Part shown: piece after piece, positions 4,473-51,606 of the stretch
Layout: each line of letters opens with the position of its first letter
Position numbering within the stretch: position 1 is the stretch's first letter
Origin: Labyrinthula sp. Ha
Taxonomy: Eukaryota; Sar; Bigyra; Labyrinthulida; Labyrinthulaceae
Assembly (NCBI GenBank): GCA_015227615.1
Contig: JAALGZ010000065.1
Span: 1 to 64,000, forward strand
DNA: 64,000 bases
Direction of reading: 5' to 3'
Notes under the pieces: model-generated
Told to the model about the DNA's origin: nothing
Seen by the model: the letters and a program-made list of their open reading frames with translations, nothing else
Database searches by the model: none
Translations under genes and position numbers: made by a program

Positions 4473-4480
4473 CGCAACCA
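4469..4480 (-). promoter_or_regulatory. Primer-binding site of copia element 1, containing the gag ATG
   Basis: Directly abutting the LTR, the minus strand reads TGGTTGCGATGG. It begins TGG, as expected for pairing with the CCA end of a tRNA. The same 12 bases sit at the same place in the second copia element (17014-17025) although the flanking LTRs are unrelated in sequence. The ATG inside it (4472-4470) is the first in-frame gag start in the internal region. Which tRNA primes is unknown. Confidence 0.65.
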
Positions 4481-4780: not shown

Positions 4781-5793
4781 CCAATATCTAGACAGAAACG
4801 TTCTTGCAGAGTACTGACATTAAATTCATCAAGGAAAATAAGATGAACTTGAAAAGTATAAGAAAAAGTTTTCTAGAAAACTTGATTAAGCCATGTGTTT
4901 ATGAACTTGGTCAAGTTTATTCCTGACAGTCTATATTCAACTGATGAGAAAGTGAAAACTAAATAAATAATTTTTACTTAGTTTTTGTTTACTATAATAG
5001 TTTTATCTAAAATATTCTGACAGATTTTACACTAATTCTATTCTAGTTTTATTGCTTGAATATTTTCTCCTCTTATTATGGTATGATTAAATTACATCAT
5101 ATCCTCATTAGCTTTTGGAAATCAAAATTTAGGTTATTAAAATGACAAATAACTATTAAGGCTTTTTCTCTAATAACACAACATTAAATATCCGGTATCA
5201 AAAAATGGTTTCAGTTAGCGCTCGAAAATAAACTTTATATCTATTTTTTAATATAATTCTAAAATCAACAGACATTTTTAAGGAGTGCCATTAATTTGCA
5301 AACATATAATTTTAGGGATTAGAATGGGATAAATTACTTTCGATCGTTGGCTTAGAAAGCTCAGTTACTTCTTGCCAAGTTCTGCTTGAAGGTTATGAAA
5401 TAGAACATATAAAGAAAGAGAGTCAATATACTAAATAGTAAAGAAAGTAACAATATATTCATGTTTTGGTATATATATTCAGTTTTCACTGTTGTAATAG
5501 TAAAATTGTTTAGTTGTTTATTTAGTCACAAATGTTTTTAAGTTCTATCAAACCTTTAAAATAGGATGATGAATATAAAGGAGTGGGATAAACACTAAGT
5601 GAAGAATATTAATCTATTCTATTTTTGAACAGTTTCAATATAAAGTATGAAAAATTTTATTTGTAGACGAAAAACATTTGTGTGGTTTTGCTTGCTTTCT
5701 AATTTGAGATAAAGTTTATTTAGTTAACCTTAAAAATTTCACACAATAAATAAATACACTTCACCCATTTAATTTATAAAGAAAAAACCATTA
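4781..5793. other. AT-rich intergenic stretch
   Basis: Between the copia element and the 3' end of Roc-COR gene A. No open frame of note, no repeat and no RNA-like structure seen. It probably contains only the downstream flank of the minus-strand gene. Confidence 0.5.
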
Positions 5794-11130: not shown

Positions 11131-12189
11131 ATATGATGTAAGTGCTTGTAGTGTGGTTAAATTAACTTTTTAAATCTGTCAGAGATTCGAAACAATCTCA
11201 CTAGGTAAACCAGATTGAAGTTATGGTTATTTCTTTAAACAAAATCATATAAAAATATTTTTCAATATTATAACCTTGAAAATTTGGTTTTCTAAAGATA
11301 TTTATTCCAAAATAGAAAATGAGATGCTGGATAGAAACATTCTTCAAGCGTATACAGGCAATTCTCATATGTGTTCCATTAGGGGCGACGAATATAGGAG
11401 AAACACTCCCACATACCTAGGTATGTCTTACAATGGACATAGTCTAAGTGTTTTTCTAAGGATTCAAACCTAATTTAAAAAAAATTTACTCTTAATATAA
11501 AGAGATAGAACAATCTATTTATTGGCTAGTAATTCCTTGATTAGATAAAGCCAAACCGTTGATATCGAATTATACAGCATTTTAAATTTGAGTTAGTTGT
11601 TTTGAGCATTTTCGCTATGTATTTTTAGAAACACCCAAAAATTATATTTCAACTAAATTATTCAGTTTAATATTGGTCTCAATTCGAATTTGTGTGAGTT
11701 TCAATAACTGAAGTGGTTCCTACTATAGTATAGAGCGTATCTACTTAAATACACAATAAGTTGTACAAACTATTTGGTTAATATCTCTTGAATTGAACAA
11801 GGAATTCGATGAGAATTATATGTTTCACATATGTAATTTATATTACGGAATATCTACACATCTGAATTAGTCCCAAGAATTCTTCTGAAACTTATTCTAA
11901 GATACAGAAGGGATATATATATATATATATCATATGCAAAGTGAAAATATTTTACCGTGTTTTTAGCTTCTTGAACTTATAATTGTAAGTTAGATTGCGA
12001 TTTAAAAGATCTGAAAATGTCAAGCTTGATTAATATCTGAGAAATTCATTGTTTGCGAGGATATGTATTCAATAGTAATGCATAGGAAAACATTCTATTA
12101 GTACAAATAATATTATTAGCAGCTTAAGGTAAGAGCAAAATCGACCTTTTATACATGTAGTCCAGGTTAAAATTGACACAGAAAACCAT

Positions 12190-12447
12190 AGTGAGAGAAA
12201 AGAAAAGGCATATACTAAGTAGAGATTTAGATAAGTAGTGAGAAAAGTGCAGAAGGTTAAAGTTCAAGCTTAGGGCTTTAAATTGGTGTAAACAATGTCT
12301 TCTAATTCAAAGTATTTATTAAGATACCAGTCAATGAATAATTTGTAAATTTGTGTCTTCGATTGATAGATTAATTGTTAGGCGGTATTTACAGTAATGT
12401 CATACTGTGATATAATAGTATGTAACTATCAAAGGAAGTCTCTGAGT
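12190..12447 (-). repeat. 258-bp 3' LTR of copia element 2
   Basis: Same length as and about 96% identical to 17026-17283. On the minus strand it follows a purine-rich stretch (AAAGGAAAGATA), the expected polypurine tract. Confidence 0.94.
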
Positions 12448-12459
12448 CCATATCTTTCC

Positions 12460-15400
12460 TTTAAACTTTTACGTGCTTGTAGTAAAGTTTGTCGTTAGCT
12501 TGCTTCCAAAATTTTTTGAAATCAACTTTGGTCGGTTGTTTAGTTTGTAAATCAGAAACGTTGAAATCTCTTTTCACGTAAAACACTTTCAGCTTCTTTT
12601 CTTTAATCAAATCCCTCAAGAAAAGAATCAGAAAACTTAAATGTTTTTGCTTTGCGGTGACTGGTTTTTCTAGTGTGTTAACGCATGTTTCGGAATCAGT
12701 GAGAATTACAGGTGAAGAATCAAGTTCACAATGTAGATCCTTGCAAAGTCCTGCGATTCCTTGTAATTGTTTAGCTGTTGAATAAATCTCCATCAACTCG
12801 GCACTTGCAGCTGAGGTTGTTACAGCTCTTTGTGCTTTGCTTTTTCCACTGACTAGAGATTGACCGAAGTAAATAAAGTTTCCCCTAACAGATTTTCGAT
12901 TTAATTTGTTAGCAGCCCATTTTGCATCACAGAATGCGAATAGTTTAGTTTGAACATTTCCGGCTCCTTTGAAGAATATTCTCTTTAGATTTTTTTGTCT
13001 GTTGTAAGTAGCCTAGAGTATTCTTAATTGCTTTGATTGCCTCTTCAGTTACATATTCGGTGAACCTGCAAAGAGCGTGTAATGCAAAAAGTAAGTCCAA
13101 CCTTGTTAGTCTAAGGTAGATGAGAGATCCTAAGATTTGTTTAAATGGAAATTTCGTGTTTGATTTGTGTTCAGGATCGACTAGTGGTTTGAATGTAGCT
13201 GGAAGAGGTGTGTCTTTAGGTGTTGCAACTTAGTGTTTGAAATTCTTCAGTAATCCGTTGATCTACTTAGTTTGATCAATTTCAAAATCTCCTTTGCTGT
13301 TTTTAAAAATGTTAATTCCTAAGAAATCCACTGATTCATTAAGATTTCCAACTGTGCATGTGTAAGACTTCTGAAATGATTTAATTAATTTTGAAATTTC
13401 GTTTTTGTTTCCTAACATCAAAACACCATCCACGTACAAGAGTAAAATTAAATTTTGTTTGTAGTAAATACATTCATCAAAATTTGCTTGAAGGAAACCC
13501 AAATTACGTAAGTTTGCTGTTACATTGTCATGCCACAGTTTAGGACTTTCTTTTAATCCGTAAAGCGCTTTGCAGATTTTCATCACCATTGTCTTGTTTT
13601 CATGCTGTAGCGGATGACCATCAGGAATTTCGCAAAAGAGTTCCGTGTTTGGTGGAAGATCTGCGTAAAGAAAAGCTGTGCTGACATCCAGTGAGTTAAA
13701 GTCAAAACCTCTGCTTGCAGCAATTGCGAGAGCTACACTAAGACTTTCTGCGTTGAGTGTTGGTGAGCTTCGATGTGTAGTGATTTTGTAGCGTTGTTTT
13801 CGACCATTGTAAACGCAACGTACCTTGTACTTTCCATTACGTTTCTTCTTTGCCAACATGGTACACTTCCCAATGAACACGTCTTGTGGAAGAGTTGACC
13901 TTGGAACTAGTTTCATGACACCTCTAGTTTCAAGAGCATTAATTTCCTTTCGCACTGCTTCTAAGTAGAGTCTTTCTTCAGGATGATCTTTAATGTCTTT
14001 GTAAACGTTCGAAAGGTTCTTCAACTTTGCTTCAATGATTTTCTGTTGTAACATTTTCTTTTCTCCAAGTGTTTTTGGTTTAAGTTTGTAGGTTCCATCC
14101 TCTGTTGTCTCCACAGTAAAAGCAACTGCTTTTCTGAGATCTAACATTGTGACCTTTCTTCCAGATCTAGTTGTAACGGTTTTAGTTCTTTTTTTTGCTA
14201 ACAGAGTTTGTTTGTAGCTGTTTTTCTGGTTAGTTGCTTCTCCTGAGTTGGGAACTGTCTCTTCATGGTCATTTTGTTGCTCATTTCGACTGGTGTCTAC
14301 TTCAACATCTGAATGTCCAGAATGATCATCATGCCCTAGATCCATGAAATTTTCCCGAATTTGTTCATTGGAAGGCTTTTGGACTGCCTTATGTATGTTT
14401 TCGGTGTAATTTTCGTCATCGTTGAGATTAGATGAATTTTCATGTTGAGGTTCAAAATTTTGAGATCTTTCAAAATTACGAAATACTCTATTTTCTTTGT
14501 TTTCGGGGCTTGGAGCCGTTTCAATATGTGTATCGACTCTATTTTGATTAAGATTTTCTTCATCATCGTCAGATTCAGAACTTTCGTAATTTAGCAAAAA
14601 TTTGGCTTCTCCAAAGGAAAGCTTTTGATTCTTGCTGAATTCCTGATGCGTGCTAAATTCTTGAAACCAGACGTCTGTTAAGTTAACATGGATGACCTTT
14701 CCACTTTCTAAGTTGTAAATAATTGCTGTTTCATGACTAGCATGAGGTTGAAATCCAAGAAACAAACCTGCATTTGTTTGTTCTTGAAATTTCGATCTCT
14801 GGGTTTTATCTTTCAATGCATGACAAAGTGAACCAAAGATCTTGAGATTAGTGACTCTTGATTCTTTGTTGTAAAACTTTTCAAAAGGAATTTCATCATC
14901 TAGTGAAGAGTGAGGACATCTGTTTTTGATGAATGCTGCGTAGCTGACTGCGTAGTACCAAAAAGAATCATCAAGTTTGGCGTTGATCAGTCCAGCTCTG
15001 GAGATTGTTTTTAGAACACCAATGGTTCTTTCTGCAATTCCATTAAAAACATCATGTCTCTCTCTTGGTACGAATTTAATTTTAATGTTTCTTGTGCTGA
15101 GGGCGTTCACAAATGTTGAGGATGTAAAGGCTGGTTGTTGATCAGTGACTAGAAACCTTGGTGAAATCTGTAAGTTTGAGACTCCTCTAAAAAAGGCTTT
15201 TGTAACGTAATCAGCTGTAGTTGATCTAAGTGGGATTGTTTCAACTAGTCTGCTTTTTGCATCGACTAGAACCATTACAGCAATGATTCCATTGATTTGT
15301 TTGTTTTTTGCTTTAGAAGGAATTAGTAGATCCATGACCAGTGCGTCACCAACATTGACTGGGGCATGCTTTTTGTTAGGATCAAGGTTTTTAACTTGAC

Positions 15401-15510
15401 GTTGTACAGCTTTGGCTTGGATGCAAGTTTGACAGCCATCTGTTTTGTAAGTTTTCTTTGTCAAGTTAAGTTTTCTTAATTTGTCGGATCCAACATGCAT
15501 CAATCTACGA
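12460..15510 (-). pseudogene. copia element 2 pol region: integrase, reverse transcriptase, RNase H
   Basis: The best-preserved stretch (about 13.3-15.5 kb) carries the integrase, with CQTCIQAKAVQ, MDLLIPSKAK, VTDQQPAF and NGIAERTIGVL, an acidic linker, and the reverse transcriptase, with TAFLYADLPPNT and YVDGVLMLG. RNase H sequence follows at about 12.46-13.1 kb, ending in a TKQPTKVDFKKFW block like that of element 1. Fossil copy; boundaries are rounded. Confidence 0.88.
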
Positions 15511-15639
15511 TGCCAAATGCTAGGATCTGAAGTTGCTAATGATGCCGAACCAAGTGGTAGGATTTCTACTAAGTCTTTTTACCAAACAATGTAGCGTTGA
15601 ATCTTTTTCCGTTTGGTAAGGTGATGAAAGGCTTAGGGC

Positions 15640-17017
15640 CATGTTAAACTTTGGTGTTTCTAGTTTCGAAATCAAAATTGCACAGGATGTTAGAAGCACT
15701 TTCAGGGATGTACACTGCGTTAACTTCAAATTTCATTGTAGGTGCTTCTTTAAATGAAAAACGTGCAATTTCCGAACTGGCGCTGTGTGCAGAGTCAACT
15801 GTTTGCTGTGAGGTAGTTGAATCAGGATTTAGTTCCTTAAGAAATCTTTTGTCTTTGAAAATAAAGACATTGCTGCATGAGTCAAGTCTAGCAAAATTTT
15901 CAGGAAGTGATGTTGAGAGTGAGCTTGCAAAGGGAAAAGGATCAAAGCTACTCTGCTGTGATGTGCTAGTAATGGCTGCTGATTTCCTAAAAGATCTTTG
16001 TCCGTAAAATGGGCTTTTTGGATTTGTTGAACAAATCTTTTTGTAGTTATTCATCTTTGAACAGAGTTTGCACCTGTAACTAATGGCTGGATATTGATCC
16101 TTGCTGTGAGACTTTGTCTCACCACAATGTCCACAAACATTGGATGATCTTTTCTTGCCTGCTGAGTTAGTTGATGTTTCTGCAACCGATTGAAATGAAA
16201 CTTCAAACGTAATCAAACCGCTGGGGTTATTTTGTAGGATTCCTTATTGAAACTCAGTCATGTAGTCCATTAGTAATTCTGGTTTGCTTCGATCGAGATG
16301 TTTCACCAGATTAAAAACTGCATTGTTTTTCGAGCGTTGCTGCAGAACCTTCGTTTGAAACAGAATCATTTGATCTTTCATGTTTTCAAAAAAGTTTTAC
16401 TTCATTGAATTTCTGTAGTAACTTCTCAAATGTTTCAATGAAATCAGTGATTGAAGATTCTTCTTTCCATGTAAGTTGTAAAAGATTCTGGAAAGCAACA
16501 CGATTTCTTGTTTCTGAAGGTAGAAAATGTTTTGCGCCGATTCTTCTTAAGATCTTGTTGAAACGATGAGGTGTTCTAACTGTAGACAAAAATTCAATGT
16601 CTTTTTCCAAATTAAAATTAGGTCGTCGCTCAAATTGTCGCCCACATCTTCATTCAGTTCGTAGATTCTTGTGTTAGAACTAGGAGACGCGGGATCGTAA
16701 GCTTCGATTATTTCGTCAATCATGGATCTTTTATAACCTTTAAAGTAACTTCTTAAAGATCCCCCTTCTACTGTTAGTGGTAGTGCCAAAAAGTAGAGTT
16801 CTACATCTCGTGTTAGGGTAGAAAAGCTGTGTCTTCCAGATGATTTGATGAGGTTCTCAGGTCTTTTTTCGGCTAGCTACTAGCCGTCAAAACTGACTTC
16901 AACCCCTTTAAATAAAATTGTCTTTGATTTTAGGCTAATTCCCTCGCTAAAAAAAGCTTCTTCTGCCAGAGAACTTGATTCTTCGCGCACTTCTTCCTGT
17001 GGTGTCGTCGTTTCCAT
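15640..17017 (-). pseudogene. copia element 2 gag and protease region
   Basis: Capsid segment (about 16.4-16.9 kb) matching element 1 in blocks such as 'TVRTPHRFNKILRRIGA' against 'TIRTPHRFCKILRRIGA', then one clear zinc-knuckle-like Cys/His region (about 16.0-16.15 kb) and the Asp-Ser protease block 'LDSCSNVFIF' near 15.88 kb. More decayed than the pol region. Boundaries are rounded. Confidence 0.8.
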
Positions 17018-17025
17018 CGCAACCA
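17014..17025 (-). promoter_or_regulatory. Primer-binding site of copia element 2, containing the gag ATG
   Basis: TGGTTGCGATGG on the minus strand, with no gap to the LTR, identical to the site of element 1 (4469-4480). The gag frame METTTPQEE starts at the ATG inside it (17017). Confidence 0.65.
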
Positions 17026-17283
17026 AGTGAGAGAAAAGAAAAGGCGTATACTAAGTAGAGATTTAGATAAGTAGTGAGAAAAGTGCAGAAGGTTAAAGTT
17101 CAAGCTTAGGGCTTTAAATTGGTGTAAACAATGTCTTCTAATTCGAAGTATTTATTGAGATACCAGTCAATGAATAATTTGTAAAGTTGTGTCTTTGATT
17201 GATAGATTAATTGTTAGGCGGTATTTACAGTAATGTCATACTGTGGTATAACAGTATGTTACTATTAAAGGAAGTCTTTGAGT
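17026..17283 (-). repeat. 258-bp 5' LTR of copia element 2
   Basis: Pairs with 12190-12447. On the minus strand it starts ACTCAAAG and ends CTCTCACT, directly followed by the primer-binding site. It shares only the terminal ACT with the 300-bp LTR family. Confidence 0.94.
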
Positions 17284-17288
17284 ACCAT

Positions 17289-22045: not shown

Positions 22046-22186
22046 TGTCCCGAAACTGTAATACACTCGTGAGAACATTTACAGCGTGCTGCGTCATCAC
22101 TTACCTAGCTTATGTATTCCTGTTATAGACCATTTTAATCTTTAATACGTTAAGAATCGTAAATATATATACATAAAAATAAGAAC
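22046..22186 (+). repeat. 5' LTR of the chromovirus
   Basis: Begins TGTCCCG and aligns with 29445-29492 followed by 34487-34582 at about 80% identity, including the runs CTCGTGAGAACATTTAC and TTATGTATTCCTGTTATAGA. The length of about 141 bp is short for the family. The exact right end is uncertain by a few bases. Confidence 0.75.
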
Positions 22187-22799
22187 GTCATAAACTAATT
22201 TACGTTTTATAAATACAGGAAAGAAAGATAGAACAAATACACAAGCTATCACAAAGAACAAGTCAAAAGTCGCGCCTTTGCACTTCTCCAAAGTAAAGAA
22301 GTAGCTGAAACAGGCAAGACGAAGTCAAAAAGCTATGAAGTAAACCGATTTATCTAAATACAAACATCTTGTGGCATAAGACGGTCCTAATTTATTAGCT
22401 CTTACTAGTTTCTATCAGCAGGCAAGACTCAAATATACACCAATCTGTTCCAAATTACCAAACATCACAAAACTTTCAAATTGGCTTAAAACAGACCCTC
22501 TTGAAGAAGAAGTTTATGAGGGTAATTTCAAATCAATTCAAGAAGACTCAGCTATTTTAGAAGATGGTAGCATGATTTATTCCATTCAAACCAAGAAACC
22601 TCCTAAGAAGATACCTATTCGAGTCATCTATATACAAAACATTAAAATAAAAATGTTGGCGTCCTTGGACTGCAAATCGATAGTTGAGTTCCTAAATTCC
22701 TATCTTTCAATGTTCAAAAACAAACCATCAGATTCAATCTCCGCGCACGTCTCCCGAAAAATTTGATACGCTTTAAGAAACAGGGATGGGGGGTTCTGA

Positions 22800-25700
22800 T
22801 TCTACAGCGGATGTGGGAAGGCATCTCCGCCAAGTAAAAGAAAACGTAGAACAGAAGAAGACGAGAATGACATGTTGATGATATCAAAGAAGTTTGAGTG
22901 GAAGAAGAAAGGAAAACCATTGGATCAGTTTGATAACTTTTTCTACCAAGTTAACGAACACTTGATGCATATTCCCGCTGAAGACAAGACCGAAAATAAG
23001 AAGCACATCACCAAGGTTATTTTGAACGCACTACCAACGGAGATATATTTGAAGTCCAATAGTGTGGCAGGTGATCTAACGCTGCAAGACCTGAACTAAT
23101 TGAAAAGAAAAGAAAAACAATGCGTCAAAATAATGGAATAGCAGCTTTTGCAATTGTCATCATCTGAGGATGAAAACAAAGACGATATAATTGAGAAACT
23201 ATCCACGAATAATTCCGAAATTTTACTATCGCCAATCAAAAAGAAGAAAAAAAAACAAAGAATGAGAAGAATAAAATGAGATGCATTTCTGTGCTGGTGA
23301 CTTTCGAAGATACAAAGAAATCTAAAAGGTCAACTGTTTTATAATATAACAACGAATACAGGAAGAATTTTTGGACAGTTAAACAATCACTCGATACGGA
23401 GCCGAACAAAAATGTGGGCTCTCTCCAACTACTAAAAAATTCTGCACAAAACTTGAGGAACCGGATTGGATCAAGAAAATCAAATGGGGTGGAGACGTCA
23501 CTAGGAAAATAACTAAAGTGGACAGGATAAAAGTTAGATCGATTGAAGGTATACTTAAGTTAAATCTCGGGATATTTACAGTCTTTCTAGTGGACGACAC
23601 ATCCTGGGCAGATTTCCTTATTGAGTTGCCGACGATCAAGATGTTCAATTTACAGATCACACTTAAGAATGTCAAAAAGAAAGATTAGAAATTGGGCAAG
23701 GGGGGGGGGGCAGCTTTACAATCTCCCTAGAGTTTTCAGGTTTTTCATATTCTTATTTCGACACAATACACAAGAAAGTATGTACTTTTGATTAAGAAGT
23801 AGAAAAATTATTTGATATAAGACACATTTGCAATAAAGAAATATGGGTCAGGCTTACAGTCTTCTTATCCAACACCAATAAGCTGACTGAAGTACTCAAC
23901 GGTGAACGTATGGAGAATCTTGATCTGCTTTTTATTCTATCGAAGCCAATATATTGGCAAAAAACGTTATCTCACTTCATTGATTCTCAATTTACATTCT
24001 GAGAAATACTATGAATTTACTCTACAACTATTTGCGCAACAACAAGAAAATATGCTCACTTGAATAATTTAGAAAAGGAGCATTTTTTTCTCTCACTCCG
24101 AATATCACATATTTATGTTTACCAATGATAACGCTTTCGACAAAATAGTCAACTTTCAGAACTCAAATGACATTAGATTTTTGCAAACAAGATACTATAA
24201 TCAAATATCAGGAACTTTCAGATATCTTTCTAAGGAACTTTATTACCCTAAACATTTAAATTTAGTGAATCATCTGCCTGAAGTGGTGTATACAAGGGTG
24301 GAAAATATGTTACACCATCTCAAATATCTCACCATCATTTTGAGAACTTATCAACCAAGGATGTAGCTCCCATTCTATTAAGAAACTATATTATCTTCCA
24401 CCGGAGTTAAAGGAAATAGGCCTGGGAGAGTAAACAGAAGTGAATATAGATGAAGAACATGGGCTAGAGATTATTCTGAAATAGCAGATAGATCATGTCA
24501 AGTGTAAGATAGCCGAAGAGGAAAAGGAAACATTTACACAATTAGTTCTCTCTTAGCTATACACCTTTAGGCTATACCAATATACAGATCAAAAGAGTAA
24601 TCTTACGCTCATCGAATGCAAGCTAAAATAAGGACACCCACCTATCATCCCGGAGGGATATCACCTGACGAAACAAGGGGAACACTTCTTAGAATTAAAA
24701 TTCGAAGCTCTAACAAACGTAGAAATATTTGTACCAGCAAAAAAAGTACTACGGGTCGTCAGTTTTTTGTTGTACCTGAAAAGCTTAATTTTCCTGAAGG
24801 ATTTCATGATCTACCCGCTGTTGAACAAGCTAAACTCAAAGAAAAGAATATATTATTCCTCTTCAAAATAGTGGTTAATTTAGTAAAGCTTAATAAATAC
24901 ACAATCCATACTACCTTGTCAGTACCCCATTTAAAAAGATAATTTCAAGCTTTGAGGAGAATCAAAGTTTGTTGCGGACTGGACATACTTAGTGGGTTTG
25001 ATTTTATGCCTACCAAAGAGGAAAGTCAAAATACTTTAGGTTGATCACAAGGGTGAAGCGCATGGAATACTTTGAGAGTTCCAATGGGGTGGAAAAATAT
25101 CTCAGCCAATTTTTCTGAGCACATAATCAGCAAAATCGTTGATACTCCAAATGAAAAAAAATGTTCAATACTCCAACCAATGGGACACTGTGCTGGTTAA
25201 CGGAAACTTTTGTTTTTGCAGAGGGTGTTTCGAGTTTACAAAATCTACTTAAGTGAATATTGCGAAGGGATTTACATAAAAAGTTTGATTCAGCTTCAAG
25301 AAGTGCATATTCTTCGATTACCATGTTTAATGGTGTGGTAGATTAGTAAAGAATGAAAATATACGGTTTAAAGACAGTTTATACAATAAGACACTAGCGG
25401 TATATATCCGAAGATGGTACACTAACTTCATTAAGTTATTTATTTATGAAACTGATTGATGCTAACTATTCCAGGATTAGCTCAGATCAGAGAGCCATTT
25501 AATGAAATCGTTAGCTTGCACGGGAGAACACTGGAAGATCTCGAAAAAGAAGCAGTCAACATATATTGGACGCCAACTTTGGAAAAGAACTACTAACTTC
25601 TCAAACAAGAAATTGCGGCGGCAAGCAAAAGATATTTAGAAGTTTATGACCCTGAAAAGGAATTACTTTTATTTACAGATCCCTCAGAAACTTCATGGAG

Positions 25701-25900
25701 TACAGTAGTTCTTCAGGATGATTCAAAGAATATTAGCGACAACGTAGAAACCTTAAGGCCGAAGCCCCTCATATTTCTATCTGAAACTTTCAACAAAAGA
25801 CAACTTCGTTGGCACATTTCCTCTAATGAATTGTATCCTATAATATATGCCTTGAAAGATTAGATTTCATGTTGAGGACACATTATCTCCCTATTCATAT
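22800..25900 (+). pseudogene. chromovirus gag, protease, reverse transcriptase and RNase H remnants
   Basis: A gag-like helical segment contains GKPLDQFDNFFYQVNEHLM. A protease-like segment follows near 23.4-23.7 kb. A reverse transcriptase trace near 24.97 kb reads LDILSGFDFMPT, like the family's 'DLxxGFxxxP' motif. The RNase H near 25.65-25.86 kb reads LLLFTDPSETSWSTVVLQDD, the typical Ty3/gypsy 'TDAS..GWGAVL' start, and ends in a well-kept ELYPIIYALKD block. Strongly decayed; boundaries are rounded. Confidence 0.72.
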
Positions 25901-26449
25901 TTATACAGATCACAAAGTATTACTTGATGTGTTAAGAACAGAAAACACAGTGAAACAAGTTTATTGCGACAGGCTATTCAGATGGAGCTTGCTTTTGCAT
26001 TAGTTCACTCTAGTAGTCCATCATATCCCATCACGAAGCAACTTTCTGGCATATCTTCTCACTAGGTGGGGAACAACAGATACAAACAAAGAAATGTCAG
26101 TAATTAACTTTACCAAATTCTCTTCATTTAACTCAGATACAGTGATTGATCAATATGATGATTTATTAAAGACTTTTTAGAAGATGAAATTGAGCAACTC
26201 TTTACAATTAGAAGGATAAATGCAGAAGATGCAATTTCCCTCTATACAGCTAAAGATACTGTTCTTACTGAACGTTTAAGACCTACACAAGAAAAATTAC
26301 GCCAACACAATCTGTCTTTTCTCAATCCATATTATGGCAAGAAACAGTTTAGAATTCTTGAAGCACAAAATCTTGTCAAAGAACAGAATAAGATGGATCC
26401 AGTCTTAAAAGAAAAAACTACAATAAGAAACCAAGTGCGATATATGGGA

Positions 26450-27760
26450 ACCAAACTTGTTATTCCATTTACTTTATTTACTAGAGTTTTAGTTCAGTTG
26501 TACATTTCTGCCGGTCACCCATCATATTCAGATGAAATCAATATGCTTAAGAAATACTTTTTTGAATAACTAAGCCGAAAAGATGTAGACCTCTTACTTA
26601 AGATATTCAGCAAAAAATGCTTACATTGCAATCGTTGGCCAAGAATCCTAAAAAGACCTTTGGATCTTACTCAACTCGCTAGAAAACCAAGAGATATTTT
26701 ACATGCAGATTATTTATATGTCAAATCTCAAGGTTTCATTTTAGCTTTAATGGATTCCTTAACTAGAAAAATACAACTTACTTATTCAAATTCTCCAACT
26801 GCACTTTCCATACCTCAAGCCATCATGCATTGGTGTGGATCTTTTAATATGTTGGACCATTGTTTAATAGTTACAGACAACGCACCGCACTTCAGCAATC
26901 AATTACTAACTGGACTTTCTAGATCATTCTCTTACACTCAAAGTTTTAGTATAACCTATAATCCTTGGACTAATGGCTCTATCTAGGTTATCAATTCAAA
27001 AATATTACACTACATAAAGACTATAGTTTCTGACTTTGGGTTAACATGTACTGAGTGACCTTCCATTCTGGAGACAATCAACTATATTATGAACAACAGG
27101 TCAATGGTTACTCGCAACAACTTTACTGCTGATGAATTATTCCTTGGGATTGAATCGCAGGAGTATATTTATCAACCCGAAGCTAAACATTTTATGATTG
27201 CTATAGAAGAGAAAAATGTCCAGCCAATTAATTTCAAGAAGCTAATTAAACACGCAGAAAATTTACATGAAAAGATAATTAATTTAGCCATAAATATTTT
27301 ATTAGTGTTAAACTTGCTAAAGATTTAGGAAATATGAGGAGATCAAAGAAGATCAAGTCATTCCTGCAGTTTTCAGCTAGAGACTATGTTCTAATATCCA
27401 AAGAAGGCCGCAAATAAAGTCAAGATAAGATGTACCTAAACTGGACTGGACCATTTCAAGTTACTGAAGTAGTCAGCCTAAACGTCTACAGGGTTGAATC
27501 TTTAACTGGAAAAGTTACCTGGCACACGCCTCTAGGTTATGGTTTTATTCAAATCGTAAACCAGCAAATTATTTCAAGCTCCGTAGATTCTTTCAACAAA
27601 ACTTTGAAACTTTAGAAGTCGACAAAATATCGATTATTGAACTGAAGACTCTCAGAAAGGTCCCTGAATACAATGTTAAAATACACTGGTTAGGTTTAGA
27701 AGAAGAAAAGGCCTCTTGACGCTTATTAAGCGTCATTTATGCAGACGTGCTTCTACTTGT
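26450..27760 (+). pseudogene. chromovirus integrase and chromodomain
   Basis: The zinc-binding part ends in CLHCNRWPR, then the core shows ILHADYLYV (first Asp), LIVTDNAPHFSNQLL (second Asp) and YNPWTNGS before the place of the Glu. After the C-terminal beta-barrel (TGPFQVTEVVSLNVYRVE) comes VPEYNVKIHWLGLEEEKAS (27659-27714), which matches the core of a chromodomain. Chromodomains steer integration of this clade to marked chromatin. Fossil; boundaries are rounded. Confidence 0.82.
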
Positions 27761-27949
27761 TAGAAATTTTCTCAAGTCTGACAAAAATATCAATGAAAAT
27801 GAGAAGAAGAACATTTTCCTACTCTTGGATGAATTCGATGAAGCCTCTAGACTAAATTTAAGTAATTCAAAACACAAAAGAGGGGGAGGAAAACAAAACA
27901 TATTATTTCAAGAATAAAAATCAATAAAAACTCAACAAAATTACTTCAA

Positions 27950-28145
27950 CATTTCTATTACTTTGCCAACAGTAGACTTACCACTGGCTGGTCATCTATC
28001 GAGGATCAAATCTTAAAGATGCTTGTTCTATAGTATGGATGTGGTACTTATTCTAAGTACCAAGAATCATCTGATTTACCTGGAAGAAATAAACAGCAGT
28101 TTTATACGAAGCTCCAGCGTTGGTTTGGGCTGCAATCTATTAAAC
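27950..28145 (+). pseudogene. Myb/SANT-like DNA-binding domain inside the chromovirus
   Basis: A tryptophan-led helix (GWSSIEDQILKML) is followed by the Gly-rich turn YGCGTYSKYQ and by LPGRNKQQFYTKLQRWFG (28074-28127). Spacing and residues fit a Myb repeat: W..xED..L, then YG.G, then LPGR...Q...KLQR. Placed between chromodomain and methyltransferase on the same strand. Myb-like subunits accompany MT-A70 enzymes in the ciliate DNA adenine methyltransferase complex (MTA1/MTA9/p1/p2), which makes the pairing here notable. Fossil. Confidence 0.62.
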
Positions 28146-28149
28146 CTTC

Positions 28150-29400
28150 TCCTTGCTGCGTTTTAATCTCGACGAAGCCTGGGAGTATCTTGCATTAACA
28201 CTTGGTTCAGGCTATAAAATCAGGCCACGCGGAAAGTTTGTTGTAGATCAAGAAAATGAAGCTTTTAGTACTTTTTTGGATTTCCCTACTAGAGACGCTC
28301 CTCATCTCAATTTTATTCAGATTCCATATTATAGAAGGATTGATCACCCTGGACATGTGGGCATCATGGTAGAAGAGTACTCCGAACTTAAGTCTTGCAA
28401 AGACCTTTTAGCTGCGCATGAAGTTAACTCTAAAGAAGAATTTCTGGAATTACAGAAGAAAAATATTTCTAAGATCAAGACTGAAATAAAATCTAATGAA
28501 TACATTTGAAATTCTCTATCAGAGGAACTTACTTCTTCAACAGAACTAACTAAATTTCTTGACAAACTTTATAGAATAGCAGCTTCTTTATATCCCGAAA
28601 TTTCTGCACATTCAAAGACGTATCAATATATTTCAAACACGTTTACCATCAAATTCTCACCCACTTTATCAACCAAACTTTTACTGAATCTTATGCAGCA
28701 GCAGTCATCTGACACAATCAAGATTGAATATTATGGAAACAATATGTTTAGCTTATTCAAGTCGAAATCTACTATATATTTGTACAACCCGCTGAGTCAT
28801 TTTGTTTTCTCACCAACGTTGCTACCATGAAGTTGACTAATATGAAGAAAAAGTTTAATCGTTTGGAGGTACTAATTATGGACCCTCCTTGGAAAGTTGG
28901 AGCAGCTGTCCAGTACGTGGTGTCGCTGCCAACTATGAAACACTCGGAATCAAAGACTTGGACAATATTAATGTGACCATGTTGCAGCCACAAGGATCCT
29001 ATTTATTCGTATGGACGGTCAGGAAGTACTTCTATGAGACTCTTTGTTGGGCATCTAATAACTCGTACAAGCTATTGGATTAAATAATCTGGATTAAAAT
29101 AAATCCTTCTACCTCTCTAAGAACAAACATTGAATATCTACTGGGACGCGGAAAAGAAAGTTGTTTAGTGTTTAAGAAACAAGAACACGAAGGTTTAGAA
29201 TACGCGAATCTGTTTGAACAAGAACACCGATATACTCATATCTCACCTTTAGTAACTTTGACACTTCCAAATTCCCAAAAACCTACTCATGTTAGTGCTT
29301 TTATTGAAGCTACTATACCTAGAGGCAATTATGGAGAACTGTTTGCAAGATCTAACAATATGTGACCTAAGTGGATAAGCTTTGGACTGGTACTTTGGCC
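28150..29400 (+). pseudogene. MT-A70 family adenine-N6 methyltransferase domain inside the chromovirus
   Basis: The catalytic DPPW motif, in LIMDPPWKVGA, lies at 28881-28892. Downstream blocks occur in family order: NYETLGIKDLDNIN, LQPQGSYLFVWTVRKYF, IIWIKINPSTSLRTNIEYLL with GRGKESCLVFKK, and PRGNYGELFARSNNM with PKWISFG near 29.37 kb. These correspond to the 'GTMSDDE', 'LIFLWVT', 'IIWVKTN', 'GKEHCLVG' and 'ELFARPHN' blocks of METTL3/METTL4/MTA1-type enzymes. About 240 codons upstream (28.15-28.8 kb) belong to an unrecognised N-terminal part containing PYYRRIDHPGHVG. It lies before the polypurine tract and 3' LTR, hence within the element, not next to it. Whether DNA or RNA was the substrate cannot be read. 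Fossil. Confidence 0.82.
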
Positions 29401-29492
29401 TACTTGTAATAGCAATTACGTGGTTTCGAACACTTGGAAGGGGATATCCCGAGACTATAATATGCTCGTGAGAACATTTACTCCGTGCCACG

Positions 29493-29505
29493 TAGGGTTC
29501 TTTAT
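29493..29505 (+). repeat. Left terminal inverted repeat of the hAT element
   Basis: TAGGGTTCTTTAT; its exact reverse complement is at 34466-34478. Confidence 0.85.
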
Positions 29506-32500
29506 TGGAACGGAACACACGATAGTTAGAGGAAAATTTCCGATAAGTTTCTTTACCGTTATTAACGGTAAACAAAATTGGAGTATTATCGTTTAACGGA
29601 AAAAGGTGGAGTTAACGGAAAACACGATAACTACGTTAAGTAACGGTACAAACCGGTATTTTTGGGCAACTCAACAAAAACCAATTTTTCTTTTCCTGGT
29701 TAAAGTCAAAACCAAACAAGTCCAAAAAAACTCCTTGTTTGAACAAAAAAGGTGGTGGAAAGAAAAACAAAATAAGTTTTGAAACATGAATAAAGAACAA
29801 TTTGCTCGTCGAAGCTTCAAAACTAGTTGTCTTCTACTTGTTGGAGATTTTGCTTAGCTGAACTGTCTGGAAAACGTGTTTGATTCACAGGGAAAAAGCT
29901 AAAATTAAGTAAAACTAGAAGAAATCGGCCAAATGAACTAAAATGGCGCTACAGCAATATTTTTTTGAGTATAATTTTAGTTTTGTCTGTGTTAAATTTT
30001 CAAAAAGATGTCAATTTTTTATTAGTTTTGGATAGAAAAGAAGGAAACATTATGAAGAATATTTTTCAATAGTTAGAAAAGGGAGAAAACCTGTGCAATC
30101 CGGTCAAAGAACCCCAGGAAAACTAAGTTATAACTGTGGTTACAATTTCACCCACTCTCTTGCGCTCATTCCAAGCAGTTGGATGTTTCGATTTCACATT
30201 TGGAACTGCTTAATGTAAGAAATAAAAGTATCTTCAGTTGGTTGTTTTCCTCAATTATTTCAATATCTCCCAATGTTTCTATGAAAGGATTAGTGTCCAA
30301 GATTTTCTTTCTCAGCTTGAAACTGGTCATTTTGATTTCAAGAACCAGGATTTAAAGCTTTTCTTCTACATCTTTCACTGGCATATTGTAAGAACTGCTT
30401 GGTTGCTTCAGTTTTTTCTAAACGTAGTACTCAATTAATAACACTTGATTGATATTAATCTTCCTGATCCGACATCTTTAAAACAGTTCATGCAACCTTG
30501 AAAACATCAAGTAGTTGACTAGATGATTCTCCTCCGTGTTCAAATACGTTTCTTCCTTTTCAGCGGTATATAAAACTAGATCTTTGTATGGGTTTGTGAT
30601 CTATTGCGTTTTACGTGCCGACAAAAACAAACTACAGGTCCGCGGATAAGGTTTTCAGGTCGTAAAATAATTGATTTGACTCTTAACAATAAAATTCTTG
30701 AGCTTCCTTTTCTTTCTTATTCTTTTTTCCAATTAATTCTTAACGGCTAGCAACAAAAACAAAACTAAGGTATTATATCAACGTTGATGGAATAGCATCG
30801 ATATTCCATTAATACTACTATCCAAATCAACCATTTCCGGTAAGTTCCATTATTTATAAGTAAAATCTTCCCAAAATATCACAAATATAAACCATATATA
30901 ACAAATCGCTGGAACTCGGTATCGGAAATCAAGGTTCGCATAATCCCAAATATCACGTTAATGTAAATTTGTGTGGTTTTTTTCTGGGGATATTTTACAC
31001 CATATATCACGCACAAATCACGCAGCCCAAAAAACCAAATATCGAAATATAGCAAAAACCACAGGAGTTGACTAGCAGAAAAGCAACAAAAACGACAAAA
31101 AACAAAGCTGAACATATCTCACGACACTACAGATCACTTAAATGCTTCCAATGGTTCTGTAAGTCTGCATCTTTCCATGTGCTCCAGAATAACGTTGAAA
31201 AAATAACTCTTTATTTTGACCCGTAGTATACCTTCAAAATTTTTATTACTTTGGGCATCCATTCGCTCAATATTCGCTAAGTTATCTGAAAATACGGAGA
31301 TCTCTTGACCGTTTCTTGACTTCGGTTGGTTTTAATGTATTAATGGTAATGTAATATTGAGTTTATTTGAGTATAGGGGAAATATCAAAATATAAAAAAG
31401 TAGGAAAGCTTTTAAATAAGTCAAGCTTAGAGTTGCAATATATAAATTCCATTTTCATAGAATATATCTTTCTCTTTTTAAAATGATACTAAATAAGTTC
31501 TATAGAAATAACAGGAAGTTATTTAACTTGTAAAAATAAAAACATCACTTTTTTCCATAAATACGTCAGAAAAACGACCACAGAATGGCTTTTTTCAAAA
31601 AATAAAAGCGTATTTCTTATTTAATTTGCACTGATCTTCTTCAAGGAACTTTATATGTATTTTTAATCATTTATCATATGTAAGAGTTAAAAAAACATGC
31701 ATTTTCATTTAAGAAATTGCCATAATTTGATAGAGATTTGTATAATTAACACCAATAAAAGCTTCAAAGTTTATTTTTTTCTTCTTTAAATTACTGAAAA
31801 TTTGTTCTAGATAAGGTTAGTGTCTATTTTTTTTATATTTGTCCCATGAAAAGTTCAGTTTTGGCTATTTTAAAGTTGAGTTTGGAGTAGAGTTAAATTA
31901 AGCGAAATAACTATTGTAGAGATTAATAGGGAAGTTTTTGGAGCTTCATCGAGCAAAACTCAAAGAAACCCTAAATCATCAATACATATGTGCATCTACC
32001 ATTTATCAGGAGGTTTTGCTACTTGGTATTGCCCATTCGGGAATATTTGACATTTAAGGGTATCCTTTTTCAGAGTTTCTGAGATCTTGGAAATAGGAAA
32101 CATTGTTAGGAAATCTATACATAATACTCCAATTATCAAACAAAACTGTTTCTAGAGCTAAATCCACCCGTTCTTTCAACTGATGAGGTCTATTTGGGCT
32201 CTAGACGAGTATTTCTCGAGGTATTACACGGATTGAAGTAGATAAAAACAGCTTTTTACCCCAATATCGACTTTTCTTCAAAAAAATATTAAAAATATCC
32301 TAAAAAACAGAGTTAAAGGTTACAGGTCATGTTTTTTAGTTGTTTGGGACTATCTAGTACAAAAATTTAGGGCATTATAGCAAAACTGAGTGCTTTCGTA
32401 TTTTCAGATGTGCAGATTTTGAACATTTGACTTTTCTGAGTGAAGTTTAGCTCAGTCACAGTTAACTAGAGAAAAAATATCCTGAGAAAATGTTTGAGAA

Positions 32501-33746
32501 GTTAGGTATTGTCCATCCTTAGGGTCTGAGAAGAATCAGATCATCTATAGGGTTGTTCTTCGCGATGCTACGTTTGAATGTATGTTTCTATACAGATCAG
32601 TAAAATTAGTGAAAAGGACCCTTAAAAATAGTCTTTTTAGGATTTAAAGTATTCATCCTTATTAAATATCTTGACAAAATATATGGTTAGAAAGGTTTTC
32701 TTAATGTGAAATACATTGTGGGTGATACTATTGTACTTGAGAAGAATTCATGATATAAACTAACAAATACTATATGCTTTATTTTCAGTAATCATAGTTT
32801 TCTTATACTTTATATTGTTTTAATACTTCAAATTTTTATGTGAGTAGGTACTAAGTTCAGTTTTCAATATGTTTTGAACTTTGTAGAAGGGTTGAAAAGG
32901 TATTGTAGATTATATGGCCATTATACTGCATTTTTGAAAAAATTGTTGATAAAGTTTTGAACAACCCGTAACAACAAAAAGAATAAAGCACTAATGTTTG
33001 ATACTAGATTTAACTTGAATATAAGATCTAATCCTTCCAGTTTACAGAGATGGTGTAATCTTTTTCTTCATTGTTTTCTGATCGATATAAAATGGATGTG
33101 CTATATTTTGGTGATATTTTGCGTTCTACATGTATTTATTCTTTTCATATCCTATATTATCTTATATGGCTAAAAAATATTTGAAACAAATTTCCAAAAC
33201 TGTGTTTGGTTTTTGATAACTCAAAAAAAATTCATTGAAAAATCATCTTTGCAATTATTGACAAATTCGCCTAAAATACAGGTTGACTTGAAAAGAACAG
33301 AGAGAAAAGTATCTTCCAGTCCTCAAATGCAAAAAAAAATCAAGTTATTAGCAATAGCTTTGAACATAGGTCACATAAGTTAAAATAGTGCTTAACATAA
33401 AAATTAAGCGAGATATAAGAAAAACAAGAATATGACTTGAAATTGACCAATAATCCTGAAATATAGAAATACGTACTTTAATCCCAGTATTTTCAAATAA
33501 AGTAAATTAAAAAAACTATAATATTTTGAGAATTAACATTTCAAGTATTTTAGAATTTAATTTAGCTTAGAAAGACAATGCATTGACTGAGAAAAATAAA
33601 TTTTACTGCGGTAAGTAGTGATATGCTGAATTTGGCTTTGATATTCGGATGCTAAAACGCACATAACTCGTGATTAACTTCTTAAAAAACTAAACTCCAT
33701 TTTTGAGTGCATGGAAAATTAAAATATCTTTTGAACTATGTATTAT

Positions 33747-34060
33747 AGCTTTTCTGAAAAGGAGTTTAAGCCAAGATACAAGCATTTTTTTGCGAAGATT
33801 TTACAGAATTTTTGCTCTCGCGAATAAATACATTCTGTTTTGAGAGAACTAAAATTAGTTTAAATAACTTACCTTAATTTATCTTAGAAACTATCGCAGG
33901 GAGATTTCCAAAAAAATTCCTAGCTTTCTCAGATATGAGTTTAAGCCCAGATACAAGCATTTCCATTTGAAGACTACGCAAATTTATGCTATGGCCAAGG
34001 TATTACCTCCTTTTCTCAGTTACATTTTCTCTCAGAGAGTAGAAGTAGCTCTTTAAAAGA
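33747..34060. repeat. Diverged tandem duplication inside the hAT element
   Basis: Two copies about 175 bp apart share GTTTAAGCC(A/C)AGATACAAGC preceded by a CT-rich TAGCTTTTCT/TAGCTTTCTC stretch and followed by TTTTCTCAG/TTTTGAGAGA-like sequence. It shows that the element's interior grew partly by internal duplication. Confidence 0.5.
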
Positions 34061-34465
34061 GTTTAGAAAAGGTATTTGAAATATTTCTCTACTATCTAGG
34101 AGTTTATTTTGTGCTTGGATTCAGATAAATTCAAAGGTAAGGTTAGTAGTCATAGGAAAATTGTCATATACAATAATTTGCACCTGAAGTTGATTTCATG
34201 TTGCATCTACTTCTGAGTCAGCTTTTGCTTCTATTTTATTTCTTTACAAGAATAGCATAGACATAATATATTATGGAGATATGATTTGGGACAGAATATT
34301 AAATTGCTAAAAATTTTTGGGAACACCAAAAGCTATTATTCTTATCGTGCTTATCCTGGTTAACGGAAGTTTTCGTTCATTTCCGTTCCGTTAAGGTTTC
34401 CTTATCGTTAATAACGGTAAATAAAATTTGGCCATTTTAATTTCCGATAGTTAACGATAAGAACG

Positions 34466-34478
34466 ATAAAGAACCCTA
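34466..34478 (-). repeat. Right terminal inverted repeat of the hAT element
   Basis: ATAAAGAACCCTA on the plus strand, followed directly by the target duplication GTGCCACG and the remaining part of the chromovirus LTR. Confidence 0.85.
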
Positions 34479-34708
34479 GTGCCACGTCATCACTTAGTTA
34501 GTTTATGTATTCCTGTTATAGAACACTTGAACCGTTAACAATTTAAGAATCTGAAATATAAATACAAACAAATAAGAAGAACACCTGGTTGTGGATAGGT
34601 TGCCTGATCTGAAAAGGATTTATTTCGGGGTTTTGATACAATCACTCCATCAGGTCATGAGTTATTTAGTTTTACTATCGAGGTTGACTGATATATTGTG
34701 AAACGGGT

Positions 34709-35008
34709 AGTTAGACAAGTAATTGTCCGTATCGTCTATATATGTATGAGGATACATATATTAAGTTAAACAAACTGAAAGTGCTTGAAAGCAGCTTTAA
34801 AATGATATAAGTAATGTTTTCTAACTCCCAGTAGTAGTTGAGGCATTAAGGTTTTACGATCTGTTGTTTCCGGTGCTTATGTATTAGTAAAAATGTATTA
34901 TGTAAAGTTGCACCAATTGTGCGGTAATGTAATATTGTATTTTAACTATGTAAAGTGTAAACAGTCAGTATGGAGAGAGTCGTACACTCGACTGCTTAGT
35001 GTCTCACT
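34709..35008 (-). repeat. Solo 300-bp copia LTR with 5-bp target duplication
   Basis: About 93% identical to the LTR at 4481-4780 and the same length. CGGGT flanks it on both sides (34704-34708 and 35009-35013). The duplication settles the termini as AGTGAGAC...GTCTAACT on the minus strand. A solo LTR arises when the two LTRs of an element recombine and the inside is lost. It lies 126 bp past the chromovirus. Confidence 0.92.
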
Positions 35009-35013
35009 CGGGT

Positions 35014-36750: not shown

Positions 36751-39191
36751 TTAAATTAGTGAAGTTACTTTGATATCTTTATTAATCTCAACTAAAATAG
36801 TATTGATAATATTCCGCAACCAATCAAAGTCACTACCTTGAACCATACTTAGTGCAACTTCATTATTCGTCTTCACCCATAAATCTACAGTTAACGTAGT
36901 ACTTATATTAAACCTTGAAAAACCCATATAAATTAAGGGTTCTAGAACTTCTGTTTGTTTTAGAATACAATTTATAATATGAACAAAAGTTGATTTTGAT
37001 ACAGCTTCCTTAAACTCAAGAACAAAATGTGGTGTTAAAGCTGGTACTATTTTAGTACCAGAAAAAGGTGGTAATAATTCTGGAACAAAATAACTATCTT
37101 TCTCAAGCTCAAATTCAATTAGTATTAAACTCTCCAAAGCTACTTTTAATACATATTTTCTTTGTGGTATTGTATATTCTTGTAAAAGTACCTCGAATAG
37201 ATTTCTTCTGATTATTCCTGTATCAATATATTTTCTATAATCAGGAAAAACTTTTTTGTTTAATCTAAAAGCAAGTTCATGAAAACTTGGATCACGAATA
37301 AAACTTCCTAAAGCTTGAGCTATAAAAGAAGGTGCAAAAAATATATAATTTTCCTCATCTGGAAGTTCAAGTTGATCTATAAAAGTAATTAAACCTGCTT
37401 GGGTATAAACTTGAAGCATTTTATCTGCATCAGCTTCTGAAAATTTACAACTAGCAGCACGTAACCTAAATTTATCTAATGTCATATAACCCGTTTCTTC
37501 TCTGCAATTGTCTATAAAGAGTACCCAAACAGTTGGAACTTTTAAATTTATTGAATTTTCAATACCTTTTGCTCTTCTTTTATGCTGCATCACTTGCAGA
37601 ATAGTTTTCTTAATTAGAAAAGCTTGATTTGATTCTGGTCCGGCAGCATTTTCTACAGGAAAAAAATACTCAGCCTCAGGTGTTTTTATAACATCTAATT
37701 CGAGTGAGAGTTTTTTTAACACTAATTCAAGTTTATTATTTATTGTTGATAATTCTTCTCTTTTATTTTTCCTGAGAAATAACTCTAAATAAGTACCAAT
37801 AAATAAAATAGGAGCATTAGGTGCATATTTAACAATACTTTCACACCAAAAACGTAAACGAGAAATATCGTATTGATTGAACTTTGTCATATTAAAAATA
37901 ACTAAATAAATAGCTCTTGGATTCATAAATATATGATGAACAGATGAAAATATTTCTTGTCCACCAAAATCATAAATTCGACAAAAACTATCTCGAGATG
38001 TAAATTTTCTGTCTGAAATTGTAAACTCACGTACAAATAAATCATCTTGAATTGTTCTTTGAAGTAGCTCTTCTTCAAAAGGTAAAGAATATTTTTTTAG
38101 TAAACTAACCTTTTCATCCATATTTAAACTTCCACCTATTACATTTTTCACTCTCTGTACACTTAATTGATATTTCGTAATAGATTTCAAATCTTGTTCA
38201 CTTTCATCAACTTGAAAAACATTTATATCTTCCAAAACAATTGTTGAAGGATTATCTTTTCTGAATCTCTTTTTACAAATAGTTCGTAAAGTAGAAGTTT
38301 TTCCAGTTCTTCCGTCACCTAAATCATAAAATTAAACGAAAAAATACCCATAGCAATAAGTTGAACTTCATGAAGAGATCTTGGTTTATCATAATTATTC
38401 TGTAATTGTCTTCTAAACAATTTTTTTAAGTTTGATTCAGGTTTTTTTGAACTGAGTACAATATTATTTACAGCAAGATAAACAATAGAAGGATGAGAAT
38501 CTATTATTTCTTGTAATTGTGATAAATATTGTTTTGAAAAATCTGCTAAACTAAATTGAAACCTATTGTAAATAAACTAAAAATAAAATACCGTACAAAT
38601 CGCAAGTGAATATTTTTTTTCAACGTATTTTGTAGTTTTTCAAGTATCAAAGGTGAATCAAGAAAATAATTATCAGCTTTGTTTTCTTTTAGCCTAAGAG
38701 TAAAACAGATAAAAAAACTACCTAAACTCTTGGATAGAATTTGACTTTAATACAGAATCTAAAAGATCAACCAAAGTATCTAGGTTAAATCGATTAGATA
38801 AGACTCTAAATATAAGCATAAAGAAGAGAAATACTTTAAAGTTTTCAAATTGGTTAATGATTCCCAAAAAACTTTGAAAGAAGAGCTACCTGATAATCTA
38901 CAGTTTGAAAGACTAAAATTATATTTAGATAAAACATCACCTTAAAAAAATAATATTGTTCATATTTTGTATTTTTGACAATTTTATAAAGTTTTCGACA
39001 CTTAATGTGCAATTATTAAGCCTAAATATAATACAGGAATAAAAAATACTTTAATTTATTCACCCTTGGAAAGCAAATGAAAAACTGCACAATTTCAGCT
39101 TTTAAGATATGAATTGGACAATACCAAAATCTAGAGTTAAAGAAAATTTAAGTATATACTCTAAATATGTTACTTCTTCACTTCTCTCCAT
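36751..39191 (-). CDS. LRR-Roc-COR GTPase (ROCO family), gene B, 8 exons
   Basis: Exons on the minus strand: 39191-39160, 39130-39050, 39021-38941, 38912-38835, 38805-38722, 38693-38592, 38562-38348 and 38318-36751. Together they give 2,241 nt, 746 residues, stop TAA. The seven introns are 29, 28, 28, 29, 28, 29 and 29 nt. The protein starts MERSEEVTYLEFWYCPI, aligning with YLSFYCCPL of gene A, and this fixes the start. Residues 8 to about 205 are leucine-rich repeats, one per exon of 78-102 nt. Roc domain: P-loop MGDGRTGKTS (split by the last intron; Lys231), switch II DFGGQE (341-346) and IGTYL (from 398). A COR-like region fills the C terminus, with blocks shared with gene A such as FLAPSYLAQALG against FFAPSFIAQALG. 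No kinase domain. Probably a GTP-dependent switch; the signal is unknown. Confidence 0.88.
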
Positions 39192-51473: not shown

Positions 51474-51606
51474 TGATGAGTTGATCTAATTTGTAAACGA
51501 ATTTGTACAGGGGGAATGTGTTATTTAGTGTATTAATCGATGCGGGCTTTTTTTCTTTTTCTCTCTCTTCTTTTTTAATTCGATAGAGATTTTAAACGAT
51601 GAAAAA

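Follow-up and report, generated by a model that had tools for sequence, protein, structure and literature searches.

Why should a retrotransposon carry a Myb-like domain and an MT-A70 adenine methyltransferase behind its integrase? The question is raised by an element at 22.05-29.5 kb in a 64,000-nt stretch of the genome of Labyrinthula sp. Ha (GCA_015227615.1, contig JAALGZ010000065.1, positions 1-64,000 of the forward strand; hereafter, the window). A sequence-only reading of this stretch had placed such a module between the chromodomain and the polypurine tract and 3' long terminal repeat (LTR) of a Ty3/gypsy element, and had likened the pairing to the ciliate MTA1 complex. Our comparison across the genome bears out both points. 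The closest relative of the MT-A70 domain is MTA1/AMT1, and that of the Myb domain is p1, which binds DNA within the AMT1/MTA1 complex; the elements thus encode, in fused form, proteins related to two components of a single machine for DNA methylation. We regard it as nearly certain that the module consists of a p1 Myb part followed by an AMT1-like MT-A70 domain, and that it derives from the AMT1/MTA1-p1 machinery.

The window copy is itself decayed. It contains frameshifts, its LTRs are 80-81% identical, and its module is spread over several frames with in-frame stops. The motifs singled out in the sequence-only reading, DPPW (28881-28892), LPGRNKQQFYTKLQRWFG, LFVWTV, IIWIKIN, GRGKESCLVF and ELFARSNN, are all present on the plus strand in the order claimed. 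Among the intact relatives that we compared (loci are numbered with the prefix L), L035 is closest to the window copy, and a tblastn search with its polyprotein gives a collinear alignment from 24395 to 29419 that runs from reverse transcriptase (RT) and RNase H through the integrase, chromodomain, Myb domain and linker to MT-A70, confirming the position of the module. The features of the window copy are as follows.

22046-22187, plus strand: 5' LTR of the decayed element (39/48 and 82/102 bases identical to the two 3' LTR pieces).
23398-23673, plus strand: gag-protease region, a weak match (tblastn with the upstream open reading frame of L035, 25% identity, E 2.5e-8).
24395-26072, plus strand: RT and RNase H, in several frames (tblastn, L035 residues 217-774; domains assigned by Pfam in L035).
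26213-27513, plus strand: integrase (tblastn, L035 residues 851-1293; rve in L035).
27510-27839, plus strand: chromodomain region (tblastn, L035 residues 1293-1400; PF00385 in L035, E 5.6e-7).
27911-28138, plus strand: p1-type Myb domain with one in-frame stop (tblastn, L035 residues 1411-1488; the element-Myb profile, L035 included, best matches p1 in the PDB).
28147-28824, plus strand: Myb-methyltransferase linker (tblastn, L035 residues 1492-1725, 24% identity).
28773-29419, plus strand: AMT1-like MT-A70 domain (tblastn, L035 residues 1704-1920; PF05063 on 29084-29362 just under the cut-off).
29436-29444, plus strand: polypurine tract GGAAGGGGA, immediately 5' of the 3' LTR.
29445-29492, plus strand: 3' LTR, first part (39/48 identical to 22046-22093).
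29493-34478, no strand assigned: DNA-transposon-like insertion of 4,986 bp splitting the 3' LTR, with an 8-bp duplication GTGCCACG and inverted ends TAGGGTTCTTTAT.
34479-34580, plus strand: 3' LTR, second part, starting with the 8-bp duplication (82/102 identical to 22086-22187).

Within the MT-A70 domain of this copy, the frame changes near 28907, and a stop follows at 29081; the open piece from 29084 to 29362, taken alone, matches PF05063 with E 5.5e-5 and 23.6 bits (cut-off 23.9). The insertion at 29493-34478, which from its 8-bp duplication and TAGGG inverted ends we take to be hAT-like, is later than the retroelement whose 3' LTR it splits. The window copy, with its several frames, stops and split 3' LTR, is broken, a point that the sequence-only reading did not make. 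It is an old representative of a large group of Ty3/gypsy-type retrotransposons with a chromodomain, part of which is young.

This group became apparent when the genome (50.84 Mb in 153 contigs) was searched with PF05063, which gave 354 candidates. All 150 that were scored lie above the cut-off; in 26 of them a stop interrupts the domain, and 36 fall in open frames of 1,500 amino acids or more, 34 of these being free of stops in the domain. Twenty ten-kilobase loci (L017-L036) were picked among matches with long frames, so that intact-frame copies are over-represented in this set. Eleven loci hold a single frame of 2,061-2,660 amino acids that encodes, in order, a gag region, RT, RNase H, integrase, chromodomain, Myb domain and MT-A70, and in the other nine the frame ending in MT-A70 is 1,212-1,929 amino acids long, with a further long upstream frame in seven (all except L031 and L034; L035 and L036 are examples). 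LTR pairs were found at 18 of the 20 loci, the exceptions being L029 and L032, whose frames start near the edge of the stretch, and six of these pairs are 100% identical (L021, L026, L028, L034, L035, L036). Inspection by eye found 4-bp target duplications in eight of 14 copies (L017, L020, L021, L026, L027, L028, L030, L034), with L031 perhaps a ninth, and none in L019, L022, L033, L035 and L036. The MT-A70 frame ends 13-56 nt short of the 3' LTR in 13 of the 14 copies measured and 300 nt short of it in L031.

In Pfam scans of eight polyproteins, RT, RNase H, integrase and MT-A70 were found in all, although rve fell under its cut-off in four, and the order of RT, RNase H and integrase is of the Ty3/gypsy type throughout. 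PF05063 detects the MT-A70 domain in each of these intact relatives (E 1e-31 to 3e-23). PF00385 was found in seven of the eight (E 2e-5 to 7e-10), being just under the cut-off in L017 and not reported for L029, and the name chromovirus would rest on the presence of this domain at the C-terminus of the integrase; among stramenopiles, Gypsy lineages with a chromodomain can be independent (PMC12477816; here and below, PMC numbers stand for excerpts of the papers). A CCHC knuckle was recognized by motif in 15 of the 20 elements. Related elements hold the module at the same position between chromodomain and 3' LTR, and the refutations named in the sequence-only reading, namely that the other copies would all lack the module or that an MT-A70 profile would fail, did not come about.

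Pairing of domains across the genome gives the same picture. Of 379 RNase H candidates 150 were scored; for 71 of these, a scored MT-A70 match follows on the same strand no more than 6 kb downstream, at a distance of 2,530-3,228 bp in 69 cases. At least some of the unpaired RNase H matches arise because only 150 of the 354 MT-A70 candidates were scored. That the unpaired matches are elements without a methyltransferase was rejected for four of the five loci that we fetched, which do carry MT-A70 (L037, with motif IV lost, L038, L039 and L041); L040 shows none. Of 317 p1-type Myb candidates, 150 were scored; an MT-A70 match lies 487-992 bp downstream of 102 of these, and on the opposite strand there is none. 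Among the matches listed, 38 of the 150 p1-type matches have neither an RNase H nor an MT-A70 partner, and 34 of the 150 MT-A70 matches have neither an RNase H nor a p1-type partner; the host AMT1 is one of these 34, as is L031, which is clearly an element. Locus L033 has two MT-A70 domains side by side, the second of which belongs to the L039 family. The best RVT_1 matches in the genome (L009-L016) have a FADD motif, several in long frames, and are presumably long interspersed nuclear elements.

The affinity of the methyltransferase was assessed in a 48-row tree, from which METTL4, the window copy, the second L033 domain, L039, L031 and L026 were dropped, and which covers neither AMT2/5 nor AMT6/7. 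METTL4 was dropped for its long branch, having attached within an element group on a branch of 4.3 in an earlier tree. The element domains group with AMT1 rather than with METTL3 or METTL14 (96/82), beside AMT1 and not inside it. MTA1/AMT1 is also the nearest solved relative in sequence and fold; a fold search of viral proteins found phage IME4-like enzymes (E 4.8e-14) far behind MTA1. A P-[ST]-R-G stretch follows DPPW in 13 of 16 element domains (set A1) and in the host AMT1, with R-G in all 17, and is missing in L041; PSRG is present in MTA1 and absent in METTL3. Over 32 domains, motif IV reads DPPW in 21, DPPY in two, DPAW in seven and DPPG in one, and is lost in one, so that DPP[WYF] is found in 23. 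The altered or lost motifs (DPAW, DPPG, lost) belong to L001-L007, L022 and L037.

For the neighboring Myb domain, the Pfam model reaches E <0.05 in three of the eight polyproteins (L029 1.2e-5, L033 0.0011, L030 0.0013), and seven of ten Myb regions searched as short pieces match PF00249. A profile of the element Myb regions finds p1 as its best match in the PDB, the likeness extends to sequence and fold, and the p1-specific stretch that follows the Myb domain, diagnostic of the p1 subunit, is present. In a p1 tree, 12 element rows separate from three p1 rows at 95/94, the extraction pattern having missed six of 18 element loci. The scans of the eight polyproteins recognized neither MTA9/AMT7 nor p2, although no search was aimed at them.

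A retropepsin-like motif (DSGA) lies between the Myb and MT-A70 domains, downstream of the integrase, in nine of 20 elements (L017-L022, L025, L029, L032), and Pfam protease models match this site only below their cut-offs. The protease motif lies upstream of RT in seven of the 20 and was not found by motif in four.

The module is under purifying selection and diverges in step with the RNase H-integrase region. Distances in the two regions correlate with r 0.94 (0/5000 permutations; 13 elements, close relatives included). Of 25 loci tried, no region could be extracted for L023, L024, L025, L028, L031, L034 and L037, L018-L020 were omitted because they are near-copies, and a methyltransferase row was lacking for L040 and L041. 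In L017-L021, the ratio of nonsynonymous to synonymous substitution rates (dN/dS) is 0.060 for RT, 0.049 for the methyltransferase and 0.246 for the stretch before it, and in L028-L034 it is 0.109 for the methyltransferase. Of the 23 within-family methyltransferase pairs, DPAW families included, 21 lie at 0.05-0.31, one, based on few changes, is at 0.70, and for one the ratio is undefined; in the DPAW family L003-L007, nine of ten pairs lie at 0.08-0.31 and one at 0.70 on few changes, and the domain is thus still under purifying selection. Five pairs were too diverged for dS, and in each the methyltransferase is less constrained than RT by the corresponding proportions (pN/pS, methyltransferase/RT: 0.27/0.19, 0.32/0.25, 0.32/0.23, 0.19/0.10, 0.48/0.32).

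The host has its own AMT1 (L008, whose protein is found at 100% in EukProt proteome P0013) and two stand-alone p1-like genes (L042, L043). The nearest named relatives of L008 are the AMT1 proteins of Mucochytrium and Hondaea, at 65% identity over 62-63% of the query. A recent copying of the host AMT1 into the elements is unsupported, since L008/P0013 groups with AMT1s of Mucochytrium, Hondaea, Blastocystis and environmental samples (95/95), apart from the element domains. Aurantiochytrium limacinum is a thraustochytrid. For this species, peaks of N6-adenine methylation of DNA (6mA) with nucleosome-linker periodicity are described (PMC12695648). The Myb-methyltransferase part of L030 was compared with 5.8 billion proteins, shared five-residue words being required (3,266 candidates scored), a procedure that distant relatives could escape. 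It found nine matches, namely seven EukProt polyproteins with one style of gene name and two plant MT-A70 proteins; the methyltransferase domains of four of the seven are identical to loci here (L023, L027, L030, L033). Profile A2 found three short proteins (164-202 amino acids) with gene names of the same style in the protein collection. In the word-seeded search with L030, the architecture was found only in what appears to be the proteome of the same species.

What might such a module do? We suggest that the p1-type Myb domain, after processing or as part of an integrase fusion, would hold the methyltransferase on DNA, possibly paired with an AMT7/MTA9-like partner of the host, and that the enzyme would put 6mA at ApT on element complementary DNA, or on the newly inserted copy and the DNA around it. 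That neither MTA9 nor p2 was recognized suggests that the enzyme depends on partners from the host or is a simplified one. AMT1-type 6mA is located on transcribed genes marked by trimethylated histone H3 lysine 4, and a new copy marked with 6mA would therefore resemble an active gene and stay transcribed. In ciliates, AMT1 maintains 6mA at ApT after replication; the host AMT1 could likewise inherit and keep the mark that the element had written. Taken as a whole, a fused p1-AMT1-like module that writes 6mA on its own copies is probably the best explanation. That its substrate is DNA rather than RNA seems quite likely; that self-marking serves a permissive chromatin state is a nearly even call. 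We hold more tentatively the fullest version, in which a retrotransposon lineage took over a minimal eukaryotic 6mA writer and became a self-marking, anti-silencing element whose mark is kept by the host AMT1.

Several other explanations have to be weighed against this one. The window copy alone could not exclude that a host gene was accidentally inserted or recombined into a single element; we consider the chance of this negligible, and one-copy capture is ruled out by copy number and conserved spacing, given that p1-type Myb and MT-A70 are paired 102 times in the genome with similar spacing, that intact single frames exist and that divergence matches. The module might instead methylate the RNA of the element (m6A), influencing how stable it is, how it is packaged or whether it is detected, in the way that METTL3 acts on mRNA. 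The fold is common to METTL3, and the L017 domain scores METTL3 and MTA1 equally, but the L036 domain and the family profile favor MTA1. METTL3 has a CCCH zinc finger, and Pfam reports none in the eight polyproteins. The adjoining Myb is moreover p1-like, and p1 is reported only together with AMT1 (PMC12695648). For these reasons we think RNA methylation improbable.

A different possibility is that the module is an aiming device, the p1-type Myb and AMT1-like fold reading ApT- or 6mA-rich linkers at active promoters and steering integration, with or without catalysis. The module lies directly behind the integrase and chromodomain, a place where targeting domains of retroelements sit, and purifying selection persists in the DPAW family L003-L007 despite its altered motif IV. 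A pure tether, however, need not keep a catalytic motif, and 21 of 32 domains have DPPW and two DPPY in a conserved domain; we judge this explanation unlikely, if a serious one. The module could also poison the host AMT1 complex by competing for partners, thereby shifting host 6mA to the benefit of the element. The host does possess AMT1 and two stand-alone p1-like genes, and in some families the motif is DPPG or DPAW or has been lost. Against this stand the canonical motif IV in 23 of 32 domains and the strong selection on the domain in close pairs, and we give poisoning a slightly smaller chance still than RNA methylation.

Among the closest known systems is KnitGypsy-Dnmt3 of a charophyte, an LTR element which likewise has a DNA methyltransferase in the Gypsy Pol frame, purifying selection and several copies (PMC5890265). 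Its enzyme, however, is the cytosine methyltransferase Dnmt3, whereas the element described here has an AMT1-class adenine enzyme with a p1-type DNA-binding partner. The AMT1/MTA1 complex of ciliates and early fungi (MTA1c: MTA1, MTA9, p1 and p2) provides, in its catalytic subunit and p1, the nearest solved relatives of the module; there the subunits are separate host proteins, whereas here two are fused in one polyprotein. DIRS elements are tyrosine-recombinase elements. Some carry Dam-like putative N6-adenine methyltransferases (cited in PMC5890265), of bacterial type, in contrast to the eukaryotic MT-A70 and p1-type Myb of an integrase-bearing LTR element. Sola1 of Ectocarpus joins a DNA-binding ParB domain to a 4mC/6mA methyltransferase, with self-modification suggested (PMC12477816), but its domains are of prokaryotic type and lie on a DNA transposon, whereas here eukaryotic 6mA machinery lies on a retrotransposon. 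Retrotransposon-borne Dnmt3 and Dam-like enzymes are thus already known, and for an LTR retrotransposon that carries MT-A70/AMT1 or p1, or for the AMT1 plus p1 build, we found no description in the excerpts of open PMC literature, a body of text that mostly leaves out subscription journals and preprints.

The elements share a further peculiarity. Of 18 elements (L017-L036), 16 have a perfect palindrome of 12-18 nt at the position of the primer-binding site, in the ~20 nt that follow the 5' LTR, with nine different sequences among them; palindromes with arms of at least 6 occur at 0.00019 of internal positions, or ~0.004 expected per element (20 positions tried). In the two exceptions, L018 and L023, the matched LTR is shorter than in relatives, and no palindrome is visible in the decayed window copy. 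This suggests self-priming or dimer-based priming in place of a transfer RNA. The fungal GalEa Copia elements have a shorter palindrome at the same position instead of a transfer RNA site (PMC5445492).

Elsewhere in the window, 36-4532 and 12184-17288 (minus strand) are Copia-like by the look of their frames, the second with an LTR pair of 269 columns at 95.5% identity. A dispersed repeat of ~250-300 bp, 80-93% identical and perhaps representing solo LTRs, occurs at 4481-4781, 34709-35009 and 57132-57381. The minus-strand frames at 5797-7671 and 36754-38331, both long and with a start like that of a P-loop GTPase, resemble each other (DNA identity of 77-78% in parts) and are perhaps Roco-type genes, and a 1,305-amino-acid frame at 47571-51485 (minus strand) combines leucine-rich-like repeats, seen by eye, with a protein kinase domain (PF00069).

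The MT-A70 families have been described as relatively static in evolution, and 6mA in eukaryotes has been associated with active genes rather than with transposons (PMC12695648). A mobile-element lineage with relatives of both the catalytic and the DNA-binding writer subunits breaks this picture of static families and of 6mA apart from transposons. With well over a hundred copies whose active sites are intact, altered or lost, and with retroelements lacking the methyltransferase alongside them, one small genome offers a natural experiment. A natural p1-AMT1 fusion could serve as a compact 6mA writer, and if the module does place 6mA on the DNA of the element, it would help in testing whether this mark brings about permissive chromatin.
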